A stretch of DNA of 39,389 nucleotides from an uncultured Bacteroidia bacterium (lineage in GTDB: Bacteria > Bacteroidota > Bacteroidia > Bacteroidales > UBA932): contig CADBYT010000019.1 in assembly GCA_902798975.1 (NCBI GenBank), positions 1-39,389 on the forward strand. Reading direction: 5' to 3'. A program made the translations under genes and the position numbers. The notes below the pieces were generated by a model, which was not told the DNA's origin, did no database searches, and was given only the letters and a program-made list of their open reading frames with translations. Shown here in pieces: positions 24,826 through 28,059 of this stretch (position 1 is its first letter; each line of letters begins with the position of its first letter).

Positions 24826-25482
24826 ATGATACGCAATATCTTTTTTGACTTCGACGGTACGCTGGCCGACACCAGCGAGGGTATCGTCCGCTGCACGCAG
24901 GCCACGCTGCAGGAGATGGGCCTGCCCGCCTCCACCCCCCAGCGCATCAAGGCCACCATCGGCCTGCCGTTGGGCCAGTGCTTCGCCCGGGGTACGGACA
25001 CGCCGCCGGAGCGCGTCGACGAGGCCTGCGCCACTTACAGGCGGATCTTCGGCGATATTGCCATCCCCTGCATCACGCTCTATCCGGGCGTCAAGGAAGT
25101 CCTCGCGCAGCTGCATGCTTCCGGCCTGCTACTGGCCATCTGCACCTCGCGCAGCCGCGCCTCCCTGGAGACCCTGATCCGCATGCTGGAGATCGAGCCG
25201 TATTTCTGCGCGCTTACCAATAACGAAGACGTCTCCCATCCCAAGCCCGCTCCCGATCTCGCACTCCTGCTGCTGGAACGGCTCGGAGCACGGGCGGAAG
25301 AATCCCTCGTGGTCGGCGACACGATCTTCGACCTGCAGATGGGCCGCGCCGCCGGGTGCCGCACCTGCGGCGTCACCTGGGGCAACCAGGACCGCCCTAC
25401 CCTCCAGACCGCATCTCCTGACTGGATCCTTGACGATATCCGCGATCTTTTCGTATATTTGCGTACACACCAATCACTATGA
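24826..25482 (+). CDS. HAD-family phosphatase, phosphoglycolate phosphatase-like
   Basis: Small-molecule phosphatase of the haloacid dehalogenase superfamily. The start at 24826 (MIRNIFFDFDGTLADTSEGI) places motif I DFDGT with the nucleophile Asp at residue 8. Motif II is ICTSRSR, motif III lysine is in SHPKPAPDLALLLLE, and motif IV is VVGDTIFDLQMG. At 218 residues, with a helical cap between motifs I and II, it is Gph/PgmB-like. Its stop overlaps the kinase-AAA start as ATGA, so translation is coupled and the genes likely form an operon with clpP. The substrate is not predictable. Confidence 0.92.
   Translation: MIRNIFFDFDGTLADTSEGIVRCTQATLQEMGLPASTPQRIKATIGLPLGQCFARGTDTPPERVDEACATYRRIFGDIAIPCITLYPGVKEVLAQLHASGLLLAICTSRSRASLETLIRMLEIEPYFCALTNNEDVSHPKPAPDLALLLLERLGARAEESLVVGDTIFDLQMGRAAGCRTCGVTWGNQDRPTLQTASPDWILDDIRDLFVYLRTHQSL
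25454..25461 (+). promoter_or_regulatory. Possible internal -7 promoter box before the kinase-AAA gene
   Basis: TATATTTG lies inside the end of the phosphatase gene, 17 bases before the kinase-AAA ATG. The matching upstream box is weak (CTTG with about 21 bases spacing). It could allow the kinase-AAA-clpP pair to be transcribed without the phosphatase. Confidence 0.35.
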
Positions 25483-27221
25483 CACGGCTTCCGGAATTCA
25501 CCCCCTTCGGGGACTATACCATTCACCGCTTCATCAAGGCGGGCCTGTTCAACGACAGCTACATCGTGAAGGACGCCCAGGGCACGTCCTTCTTTATGAA
25601 ATTCTTCGACGTGTCGCGCATGCCGGACAAGATGCTGGTGGACGGCGTCGTGGAGGAAATCGTCCACGCCCGCCGCATCTCGCACCCGAGCATCATCCGC
25701 TATGTCGCGGACGGTTCCGGCAAGATCAACGGCAGGGAATTCCAATACCTGATCACGAAATTCTTCGAAGGCAAGCTCCTGTCGGAAGTGCTGCGCGAAG
25801 GGCGCAAGTTCACCGCCGCCGAGGCCAAATCCATCCTCATCCCCATCCTGGAGGGGCTCGTGTACCTGCACGACGATCTGGACCTGAACCACAACGACCT
25901 CACCCCGCGCAACATCCTGCTGGAGTCCACCCCGGACGGCGTCACGCCGAAAATCATCGACCTGGGCCACACCCACGGCGACCTGAACGGTCCCGTTCCC
26001 TTCCCGATGGAGGACCTCAACCTCTTCTTCGTGGCCCCGGAGGCCCTGAAAGACACCTTCAACGAGAAAAGCGACATCTTCTCCCTCGGCGCCATCCTCT
26101 TCAACATGCTCACCGGCCAGGAGCCCTGGCACTGCCACATCGGCCCGCACGACTCCTTCTATTCCCGCAAGATCAGCATCGGACGCGCCCGCCAGAACGC
26201 CCTGGAATATCCAAAAGGCGCCACCTACGATCCCGAACTGGACGCCGTCATCGACGTCTGCCTGGATTTCGACCCGGCACAGCGGCCGGACGCAACCGTC
26301 CTGCTCAAGACCCTCACGGAAGATTTCTCCCCCGCGGAGATCACCCTGAAGGAGGACAGCGCGCCCCAGCCGGACCCGACCCAGGAGCCGGCAAACCAGC
26401 CTCGCGAAGACCAGGTCTCGCTCCAGGCGCAGAAGAACCGCGCCGGACACGGAGGCTTCGCCGACGTGGCGGGCATGGACGCGCTCAAGCAGGAACTGCT
26501 GCGCCGCGTCATCTGGGTCCTCCGGGACAAGGAGAAGGCCGCCAAGTACCGGCTGCTGCCGCCGAACGGCATGTTGCTCTACGGCCCTCCGGGCTGCGGC
26601 AAGACCTTCTTCGCCAAGAAATTCGCCGAGGAATCCGGCTTCAACTACTACCTCGTGAACGGCTCCGACCTCGGCAGCACCTATATCCACGGCACCCAGG
26701 GCAAGATTGCCGATCTCTTCAAGAAGGCCGCCGAGAACGCCCCGTCCGTGATCTGCTTCGACGAATTCGATTCCTTCGTCCCGGCCCGCGGATCCGATTC
26801 AGCGCGGAACCGCGCCGAGGAGGTGAACGAATTCCTCTCCCAGCTGAACAACTGCGCCGAGCGCGGCGTCTTCGTGATCGGCACGACCAACCGCGTCGAC
26901 ATGATCGACCCGGCCGTGCTCCGCAAGGGCCGCATGGACCTGAAATACGAGATTCCGGCTCCGGATCCCGAGACGCGCCGGGCCATGTTCGCGCTGCACC
27001 TGAAGGGCCGCCCCACCACCGAGGACATCGACCTGAACCGCCTCGCCCTCCTGTCCGACGGCTACGCCTCGTCCGACATCGCCTTCGTCGTCAACGAATC
27101 GGCCATGGTGGCGGCACTCGCCGACGAGCCCATCTCGCAGCAGATCCTGGAGGAATCCCTCCGCTGCAATCCTTCTTCCCTGTCAGCCCCCAAACGGCCC
27201 AAAATCGGTTTTGACAACTAA
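25479..27221 (+). CDS. Ser/Thr protein kinase fused to an AAA+ ATPase, with an IGF-type C-terminal tail
   Basis: 580 residues in two enzymatic parts. The kinase (about 10-285) keeps the ATP lysine (MKFF, K41), the catalytic loop NHNDLTPRNIL (D140, N145) and the metal-binding Asp in IIDLGHTH (D161). Its glycine loop is degenerate (KAGLFNDSY). A Pro/Gln/Asp-rich linker (about 290-320) leads to a classical AAA domain (327-560): Walker A GPPGCGKT at 369-376, Walker B VICFDEFDSF from 424, sensor GTTNRVDMIDPA and arginine finger RKGRMD. Its closest fold relatives are FtsH/Cdc48-type ATPases. The C terminus reads PKIGFDN. The stop is 12 bases before clpP. No transmembrane segment is present. The substrate is unknown. 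Confidence 0.9.
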   Translation: MTRLPEFTPFGDYTIHRFIKAGLFNDSYIVKDAQGTSFFMKFFDVSRMPDKMLVDGVVEEIVHARRISHPSIIRYVADGSGKINGREFQYLITKFFEGKLLSEVLREGRKFTAAEAKSILIPILEGLVYLHDDLDLNHNDLTPRNILLESTPDGVTPKIIDLGHTHGDLNGPVPFPMEDLNLFFVAPEALKDTFNEKSDIFSLGAILFNMLTGQEPWHCHIGPHDSFYSRKISIGRARQNALEYPKGATYDPELDAVIDVCLDFDPAQRPDATVLLKTLTEDFSPAEITLKEDSAPQPDPTQEPANQPREDQVSLQAQKNRAGHGGFADVAGMDALKQELLRRVIWVLRDKEKAAKYRLLPPNGMLLYGPPGCGKTFFAKKFAEESGFNYYLVNGSDLGSTYIHGTQGKIADLFKKAAENAPSVICFDEFDSFVPARGSDSARNRAEEVNEFLSQLNNCAERGVFVIGTTNRVDMIDPAVLRKGRMDLKYEIPAPDPETRRAMFALHLKGRPTTEDIDLNRLALLSDGYASSDIAFVVNESAMVAALADEPISQQILEESLRCNPSSLSAPKRPKIGFDN

Positions 27222-27233
27222 TAGCCCACGAAT

Positions 27234-27905
27234 ATGCAAAAGAGTGAATTTGAAAAGTATGCCACCCTCGGCCGCGGCGTCAATTCCATGACCCTGCACG
27301 ACTATCGTTCCGCCCTGGACGCCTACATCAATCCCACCATCATCGAAGAGCGTCCCCTGAACGTGGCCTCGATGGATGTTTTCAGCCGCCTGATGATGGA
27401 TCGCATCATCTTCCTCGGCGTGGCCATCAACGACGATGTCGCCAACATCATTATGGCCCAGCTGCTCTTCCTCTCCTCCACCGACCCGAACAAGGATATC
27501 TCCCTGTATATCAATACACCGGGAGGAAGCGTCTCCAGCGGACTCGCCATCTATGACACCATGCAGCTGGTCCAGCCCGACGTGGCCACCATCTGCACCG
27601 GCATGGCTGCTTCGATGGGCTCCGTGCTGCTCTGCGCCGGCACCCCCGGCAAGCGCTCCGCCCTGCCCCACTCCCGCGTACTTATCCACCAGCCGCTCGG
27701 CGGCGCGGAAGGCCAGGCCTCGGACATCCTGATCGCCGCCAAGGAGATCGAGAAGACCCGCAAGGAGCTCATCTCCATCATCGCCCAGCACAGCGGCCAG
27801 TCCTACGACAAGGTCTTCGCCGACGCCGACCGCGACTACTGGATGAACTCCGAAGAAGCCCTCCAGTACGGTATGATCGACAAGATTTTGAATTTCCGGA
27901 AATAA
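27234..27905 (+). CDS. clpP: ATP-dependent Clp protease proteolytic subunit
   Basis: Serine peptidase that forms the degradation chamber for AAA+ unfoldases. The 223-residue protein has all catalytic features: TGMAASMGSVLL (nucleophile Ser), LPHSRVLIHQPLGG (His) and DADRDYWMNSEEAL (Asp). SLYINTPGGSV is the oxyanion strand. In many Bacteroidota clpP lies between tig and clpX; here it follows the kinase-AAA gene and is followed by the his operon. The his promoter overlaps its last codons. No clpX is present in the window. Confidence 0.97.
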   Translation: MQKSEFEKYATLGRGVNSMTLHDYRSALDAYINPTIIEERPLNVASMDVFSRLMMDRIIFLGVAINDDVANIIMAQLLFLSSTDPNKDISLYINTPGGSVSSGLAIYDTMQLVQPDVATICTGMAASMGSVLLCAGTPGKRSALPHSRVLIHQPLGGAEGQASDILIAAKEIEKTRKELISIIAQHSGQSYDKVFADADRDYWMNSEEALQYGMIDKILNFRK

Positions 27906-27924: not shown

Positions 27925-27966
27925 ATGACCCAACTGCGCGCATATCACCATCACCACCGAATCTGA
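27925..27966 (+). CDS. hisL: Histidine operon leader peptide
   Basis: A 13-codon reading frame, MTQLRAYHHHHRI, with four consecutive His codons (27946-27957) and a TGA at 27964-27966. It lies between a perfect promoter and a terminator in front of hisG. This is the arrangement of ribosome-mediated attenuation: a ribosome short of charged tRNA-His stalls at the His codons and changes the folding of the RNA behind it. The stop codon is directly followed by the GGATCCGG segment of the proposed antiterminator. No Shine-Dalgarno is visible, and the predicted transcription start is at or within a few bases of the ATG. Confidence 0.8.
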   Translation: MTQLRAYHHHHRI

Positions 27967-28039
27967 GGATCCGGTAGGTCGTCGTGTGCGTGCGTGTTGC
28001 GTTGAGAGAGGCTTGCCGGAGATCCGGGAAGCCTTTTTT
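27967..28039 (+). terminator. Transcription attenuator of the his operon (antiterminator and terminator)
   Basis: Terminator: AGGCTT (28009-28014) pairs with AAGCCT (28029-28034) and CCGGA (28016-28020) with TCCGG (28023-28027). There is one G-G mismatch, a small loop and a run of six T at 28034-28039. Alternative: GGATCCGG at 27967-27974, just after the leader stop, can pair with CCGGA...TCC at 28016-28025, breaking the terminator. A further stem of 27936-27945 with 27984-27993 (including G-U pairs) could form when no ribosome is present. The pairing was done by eye, without energy calculation. Confidence 0.75.
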
Positions 28040-28059
28040 ATGTTAGTAGTAAGACAAGT

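Follow-up and report, generated by a model that had tools for sequence, protein, structure and literature searches.

A kinase-fused AAA protein encoded beside clpP in uncultured Bacteroidales is a candidate ClpP unfoldase with a C-terminal IGF tail

Introduction

The known motors of the ClpP peptidase (ClpX, ClpA, ClpC and ClpE) are Clp-type ATPases that dock through an internal loop, and without an unfoldase ClpP degrades only peptides and unfolded chains. A tripeptide of the form (L/I/V)-G-(F/L) anchors the Clp ATPases on ClpP; the IGF residues pack in clefts between ClpP subunits and an IGF-bearing peptide activates ClpP, an effect not eliminated by an excess of a drug that binds the cleft (as described in parts of PMC7112951 and PMC8745299). 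Archaeal Cdc48 and PAN dock on the 20S proteasome by a C-terminal HbYX element, according to sections of PMC6008533. Here we analyzed a stretch of 39,389 nucleotides, referred to as the window, from an uncultured Bacteroidia bacterium of the order Bacteroidales (assembly GCA_902798975.1, contig CADBYT010000019.1; contig C19 of our genome G000, which has 39 contigs and is 71% complete). In this window, a gene for a 580-residue fusion of a protein kinase and an AAA domain, here called KAAA (25479..27221, forward strand), is followed by clpP (27234..27905, forward strand, 223 residues). We favor, with moderate confidence, the reading that KAAA, as an unfoldase of the classical AAA class, uses a C-terminal IGF tail to dock on ClpP and has replaced ClpX and ClpC in its lineage.

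Results

KAAA directly precedes clpP in one clade

We observed that the ATG of clpP lies 12 bases past the KAAA stop. An initial annotation of this DNA had reported a kinase-AAA fusion that ends in PKIGFDN and stops 12 bases before clpP, and coordinates, Pfam matches and sequence confirmed this description. For comparison we used a sample of 400 genomes of the window's genus, 43 of which have a KAAA-type match at E ≤ 1e-48. A close relative of KAAA is present in 12 genomes, with at least 63% identity over the aligned part, except for 58% in the N-terminal piece of a split gene in G058. In 10 of these 12 (G000, G080, G008, G058, G344, G355, G438, G489, G529 and G535, hereafter the linked genomes, 56-94% complete), clpP follows KAAA directly after a gap of 10-14 bases, and it is the only clpP found in each of them. 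The adjacency noted in the initial annotation thus extends beyond the window, and two further clpP linkages were found on other branches of the family. Ten of the twelve close KAAA proteins were placed in a tree (eight linked ones plus those of G410 and G513), where they form one branch with a fork support of 100/93; the two outside the tree are that of G080, which shares 95% identity with the window protein, and that of G529, whose gene lies on two contigs. Downstream of clpP, hisG is found in six of the nine linked genomes with enough sequence, the contig of G489 ending too soon. One member of the lineage, JAFTCB010000062.1, comes from goat rumen.

The C-terminal tripeptide is conserved among homologues

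We compared the ends of 68 distinct homologues of the kinase type whose C terminus is complete. Near-identical sequences were kept in this count, and FtsH loci, the 5'-only fragment L210, L056 (which belongs to another family) and sequences identical over the last 300 residues were left out. An (I/V)G(F/Y) tripeptide is present within the last 22 residues of 63 of the 68 (46 IGF, 15 IGY and 2 VGF), and in 54 of these 63 it is followed by at most two residues. Within the last six residues, [IV]G[FY] was found in 57 of the 68 homologues versus 2 of 465 background open reading frames of at least 150 residues, which were called mechanically from the neighborhoods and surely include some that are not genes. 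The initial annotation had cautioned that three residues can arise by chance; the terminal IGF is conserved among homologues well beyond this background, and we rejected a chance tripeptide. The arm that separates the tripeptide from the last lid motif, measured in 59 proteins, clusters at 8-12 and 27-32 residues, four longer lengths being probably artefacts of the search pattern. Such a two-cluster spacing is as would be expected of a flexible arm that carries a docking motif.

The five exceptions fall into two sets. L107, L247 and L248 have N(D/N)KILN as their C terminus, and ClpP was not detected in their source genomes G555, G408 and G434 (89%, 93% and 82% complete, respectively). L013 (G021) ends in VSGL and L099 (RUG11067) in QGLS, and both are then directly followed by a divergent ClpP. 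Within the genus sample, ClpP is present in every one of the 34 genomes that yielded a tailed relative, versus 318 of 400 overall (hypergeometric 0.0003, a value that ignores kinship among the genomes and is not a true probability). Tails were read in 40 of the 43 KAAA-type genomes, with G559, G562 and G580 left out. Relatives with another N terminus were counted apart, and 5 of these 10 have the motif; two acidobacterial ones end in RGF and RGL, and the acidobacterial L110 has the tail motif. As controls we took 60 Cdc48-like loci from the same scan. The tripeptide pattern occurs in 8 of them, 7 times as a terminal tail and once (L153) among the last 22 residues without being terminal, so we rejected the idea that Cdc48-like proteins in general end in the tripeptide.

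ClpX and ClpC were not detected in the linked genomes

Scoring of all candidates at E ≤ 1e-15 detected no ClpX in the 10 linked genomes or in G410. The product of the incompleteness of the 10 linked genomes is 6e-8, assuming independence. The missing clpX neighbor of clpP, remarked on in the initial annotation, was therefore borne out and proved to be wider, ClpX being absent from the whole searched G000 assembly. A search for double-ring Clp proteins (PF17871) found ClpC in none of the 12 genomes with a close KAAA. Its matches there were a ClpB without the N domain in 10 genomes, some of them fragments at contig ends, and another protein without the loop in G529; G344 had no match. In the 10 linked genomes, we found no candidate partner of ClpP other than KAAA.

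We observed a different distribution in comparator genomes. ClpC with a VGF, IGF or VGY loop was read in four of five ClpX-bearing comparators (G021, G070, G095 and G332); the fifth, G090, has a second double-ring match whose sequence was not read. ClpC with the loop was also present in both ClpX-less, ClpP-bearing comparators, G035 and G087. These two are the exceptions among 28 ClpX-less genomes without a kinase-AAA, as ClpP was not detected in the other 26; 10 of the 28 were taken as ClpX-less because they do not appear in the genus-wide match list. Six tested genomes lack detectable ClpP and ClpX (G019, G023, G047, G065, G076 and G097), and ClpC was found only in G019. All 19 ClpP-bearing genomes in the PF17871 search have at least one of ClpX, ClpC and a tailed KAAA.

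In the genus as a whole, ClpP was undetected in 82 of 400 genomes and ClpX in 109 of 400, mostly together. With the caveat that the genomes are incomplete, ClpXP is unusually dispensable in the window's genus. The genus-wide ClpX scan scored at most four candidates per genome and may have missed some ClpX; all candidates were rechecked in the 12 genomes with a close KAAA and in G023, G035, G065, G087 and G097. By hand comparison, ClpP without detected ClpX occurs in 29 genomes, 11 of which are among the 12 with a close KAAA. We rejected loss of ClpX alone as proof of replacement, since ClpX in most tested cases goes undetected together with ClpP and can be missing where ClpC remains, and the argument rests instead on ClpP being kept without either partner.

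KAAA has kinase and AAA domains and a flexible tail

The protein kinase domain comprises residues 22-277 (25542..26309, forward strand; Pfam PF00069, E 3.9e-32) and has K41, E60, D140, N145 and D161 together with a degenerate Gly-rich loop. K41, E60, N145 and D161 are present in 24 of 24 aligned relatives, which places the domain in the protein kinase superfamily. The HxD aspartate, D140, is found in 16 of the 24 and is Glu in seven and Ala in one, so some KAAA relatives may be pseudokinases. No GxGxxG was found in the Gly-rich loop of the alignment, and G22 is present in 18 of 24. As a separate observation, the kinase-AAA gene of L012 (G058) is split over two frames near codon 175, which reflects either a sequence error or a broken gene.

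A disordered linker (residues 284-322, 26328..26444, forward strand) leads to the classical AAA domain (residues 365-493, 26571..26957, forward strand; Pfam AAA, E 4.4e-35). Its motifs are complete, with Walker A GPPGCGKT, Walker B ICFDEFD, arginines R482/R485 and the pore loop Y402-I403-H404-G405. Sequence and fold searches placed the AAA part nearest to Cdc48/p97 D2, FtsH and PAN, and its Walker motifs, arginine fingers and aromatic-hydrophobic pore loop are those of a classical, Cdc48 D2-like AAA domain. KAAA has a single AAA domain and falls outside the Cdc48 family proper (TIGR01243, 183 bits versus a cut-off of 803). It is also below the cut-off of the PAN models of NCBIfam, and its tail is not an HbYX tail, reading IGFDN in the window and IGF, IGY or VGF across the family. 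The 21 NCBIfam matches of KAAA do not include ClpX (TIGR00382), and the conserved tripeptide sits at the C terminus instead of in an internal (L/I/V)-G-(F/L) loop of the ClpX/ClpA/ClpC type. KAAA is therefore outside the ClpX and ClpC families.

An AlphaFold2 monomer model from 16 sequences (mean predicted local distance difference test score, pLDDT, of 82.9) has folded kinase and AAA domains. The pLDDT drops below 50 at residues 284-286, 289-322, 400-404 (within the pore loop) and 571-580. These last ten residues (27189..27218, forward strand) are thus predicted to form a disordered, flexible tail after the folded AAA domain. The tail contains the putative ClpP-docking motif that the comparison of C termini identified, I576-G577-F578 (27204..27212, forward strand).

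The window ClpP has an intact Ser-His-Asp triad and belongs to the Clp_protease family by its Pfam and NCBIfam matches. The triad is kept in 10 of 10 linked ClpPs, and these match 43 comparison ClpPs at nearly all of the positions that we take to line the cleft. In a separate observation, Asn is aligned at the catalytic Asp of ClpP in L194 (G087) and L195 (G035), both from ClpX-less, ClpC-bearing genomes.

Other linkages and gene surroundings

A divergent ClpP, 42-44% identical to that of the window, is encoded directly downstream of a kinase-AAA gene in G021 (L175) and RUG11067 (L099). This pair of ClpPs differs at I90T, M92L and L189V (E. coli numbering), and G021 additionally has a canonical clpP beside clpX. 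The altered tails (SGL and QGLS) and the divergent ClpPs are possibly co-evolved pairs. In G180, from another genus, positions 4216-15800 of L174 hold a run of genes with tiny gaps that encode a divergent Hsp70, a CpXC protein (a zinc ribbon), KAAA, a TerB-like protein, two more proteins and ClpP. The ClpP of this run, which has 79-80% identity to that of the window, is additional to the one encoded beside clpX in G180. About ten other loci across Bacteroidota hold a comparable set of genes that lacks ClpP. Hsp70 genes are near KAAA in 11 of 44 neighborhoods, including those of Empedobacter and Daejeonella, and a YbjN/TY-Chap-like family likewise in 11 of 44, a total in which one locus (L107 = L249) is counted twice and from which 5 of 49 given loci were lost because the caller of open reading frames missed KAAA. 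With these neighbors, the KAAA family is often found in protein quality-control surroundings. We rejected a defense system, as PADLOC and NCBIfam matches were at the level of domains only, and no linked defense genes were identified among the neighbors scanned.

Upstream of KAAA, the window encodes a HAD_2/PGP-like hydrolase (24826..25482, forward strand; Pfam and NCBIfam matches). The four-base overlap with KAAA (ATGA) given in the initial annotation held, and its label of phosphatase was refined to this family. The HAD gene adjoins KAAA in just 4 of the 10 linked genomes (G000, G344, G058 and, on the opposite strand, G535). We therefore rejected it as part of the unit, and it is probably a neighbor outside the KAAA-ClpP system. 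Downstream, at 27925-28040 between clpP and hisG, we observed the reading frame MTQLRAYHHHHRI, which has four consecutive His and is followed by a strong hairpin and a T run (fold z-score -6.0), resembling a histidine-operon attenuator. An Rfam search of the window gave no match, including for this hairpin.

Discussion

We propose that an ATP-driven KAAA hexamer would present up to six flexible (I/V)-G-(F/Y) C-terminal tails. The tails would occupy the hydrophobic ClpP clefts in which the IGF loops of ClpX or ClpC usually sit, in a manner resembling the docking of PAN and archaeal Cdc48 HbYX tails on the 20S proteasome, and substrates would then be unfolded for degradation by ClpP. KAAA would have taken over from ClpX and ClpC in this lineage, its gene presumably co-transcribed with clpP, and the N-terminal kinase, if active, is assumed to supply substrate selection or regulation. 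The initial annotation had already suggested that the IGF tail docks the ATPase onto ClpP, and had supposed that the kinase might recruit or tag substrates. Tail conservation, linkage to clpP and the lack of detected ClpX and ClpC speak for the docking part of its proposal, and IGF tails in haloarchaea leave room for another role.

Several observations weigh against this reading. The motif is terminal and not in an internal loop, and most tailed homologues are not beside clpP. In the sister genomes G410 and G513, hisG follows KAAA and clpP is elsewhere; moreover, G513 encodes next to its clpP a ClpX that lacks the zinc domain and carries an RIGF loop. The tail is missing from two AAA relatives that have another N terminus and come from the ClpP-bearing G062 and G348, and G019 has ClpC without detected ClpP (contamination 5%). 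Outside the clade, 18 genomes keep ClpP without detected ClpX, and the ClpC search covered 2 of these 18. Arg192, needed for ClpX binding in E. coli according to part of PMC7112951, is Arg at the corresponding position of the window ClpP, but this position is variable in both ClpP groups. The linked clade, the tail-less trio without ClpP and the pair with divergent ClpP are one evolutionary event each. Finally, five haloarchaeal Cdc48 proteins (L130, L141, L143, L154 and L159) end in (R/K)IGFQ, unlike most archaeal controls, and two other archaeal controls end in IGYR or VGYG. To our knowledge haloarchaea are without ClpP, so the motif exists without ClpP and is not proof by itself, and the tail may be an ancient feature of the Cdc48 family that serves a different function, perhaps docking on 20S or supporting the ring. 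Given the haloarchaeal tails, the correlations that go back to single events and the many tailed KAAA proteins away from clpP, we hold our confidence at no more than a moderate level.

The alternative that survives best, although we consider it unlikely, is that the tail is an inherited Cdc48/p97 D2 element for ring packing, ATPase support or other binding, with the clpP linkage incidental or a looser tie. The haloarchaeal RIGFQ and KIGFQ ends (5 of 60 controls) fit such inheritance, as do the motif of the acidobacterial L110, its retention where clpP is not adjacent, and the RGFGSF segment that we take to follow D2 in human p97. However, 53 of the 60 Cdc48-like controls have no terminal tripeptide, some clades lack the helix that precedes the tail, giving the spacing of 8-12 or 27-32 residues, and the monomer model predicts a disordered tail. 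The tail is also gone in three kinase-AAA proteins from genomes without detected ClpP, although their AAA domain is kept, and inheritance would leave unexplained why ClpX and ClpC are missing where KAAA and clpP form a conserved pair.

We regard it as less likely still that KAAA and ClpP act without contact in a common stress or quality-control pathway, KAAA being, like its Hsp70-linked relatives, a kinase-regulated disaggregase or adaptor and ClpP working alone or with ClpB. The relatives near Hsp70 or YbjN/TY-Chap-like genes and the ClpB of 10 of the 12 genomes with a close KAAA are compatible with this. However, the ClpB frames, some of them cut by contig ends, have no second-ring (I/V)G(F/Y) loop at the site of the ClpC loop, ClpP alone would be confined to peptides and unfolded chains, and the tripeptide would be left unexplained. 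That clpP landed by KAAA by chance when a clpPX locus broke up, and that the pair was kept by descent, is very improbable: the linked genomes in the tree are one clade and the linkage is undone in G410 and G513, but the gap of 10-14 bases is kept while the flanks change (hisG in 6 of 9, HAD in 4 of 10), and clpP linkages recur on two other branches.

For the wider claim we see about even chances. It holds that a kinase-fused classical-AAA family of Bacteroidota docks on ClpP by an IGF/IGY tail and forms a new class of AAA+ protease, which displaced ClpX and ClpC in one lineage and elsewhere acquired a second ClpP or joined an Hsp70 run, with an acidobacterial relative sharing the tail. If docking by the KAAA tail is real, one motor can unite the chemistry by which ClpP is docked with the tail layout of proteasomal ATPases, other motors can stand in for ClpX and ClpC, and a kinase built into the motor offers a direct route to signal-controlled proteolysis. 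The claim is testable with two adjacent genes of an uncultured Bacteroidales lineage.

In titles and abstracts of the mainly non-subscription literature, we found no description of a kinase-AAA protein with ClpP, and the available part of PMC7159879 mentions neither ClpP nor YbjN. The kinases MAD6 and PD-T4-6 and the ATPase IetA/IteA of the defense libraries share domain-level kinase or AAA matches with KAAA, which are below the curated NCBIfam cut-offs and are single-domain matches in PADLOC. Cpa, an actinobacterial Cdc48-like protein, is likewise a bacterial Cdc48-like partner of a peptidase chamber; it differs in binding the 20S proteasome, in having last five residues that were dispensable in a two-hybrid test and, unlike KAAA, in that no kinase domain is mentioned (all from parts of PMC6017811). 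With archaeal Cdc48-20S and PAN-20S, KAAA shares the AAA class and a docking element at the extreme C terminus, whereas its putative partner is ClpP and not 20S, its motif is IGF/IGY and not HbYX, and it has one AAA domain and a kinase domain. With ClpXP and ClpCP, it shares an AAA+ motor gene beside clpP and an (L/I/V)-G-(F/L)-type tripeptide, but its AAA domain is of the classical, Cdc48 D2-like type, the motif is on a C-terminal tail, the N terminus is a kinase and there is no ClpX zinc domain. In conclusion, the comparison we favor, by analogy, is that KAAA would act toward ClpP as ClpX does and would be built like a tailed, one-ring Cdc48 or PAN.

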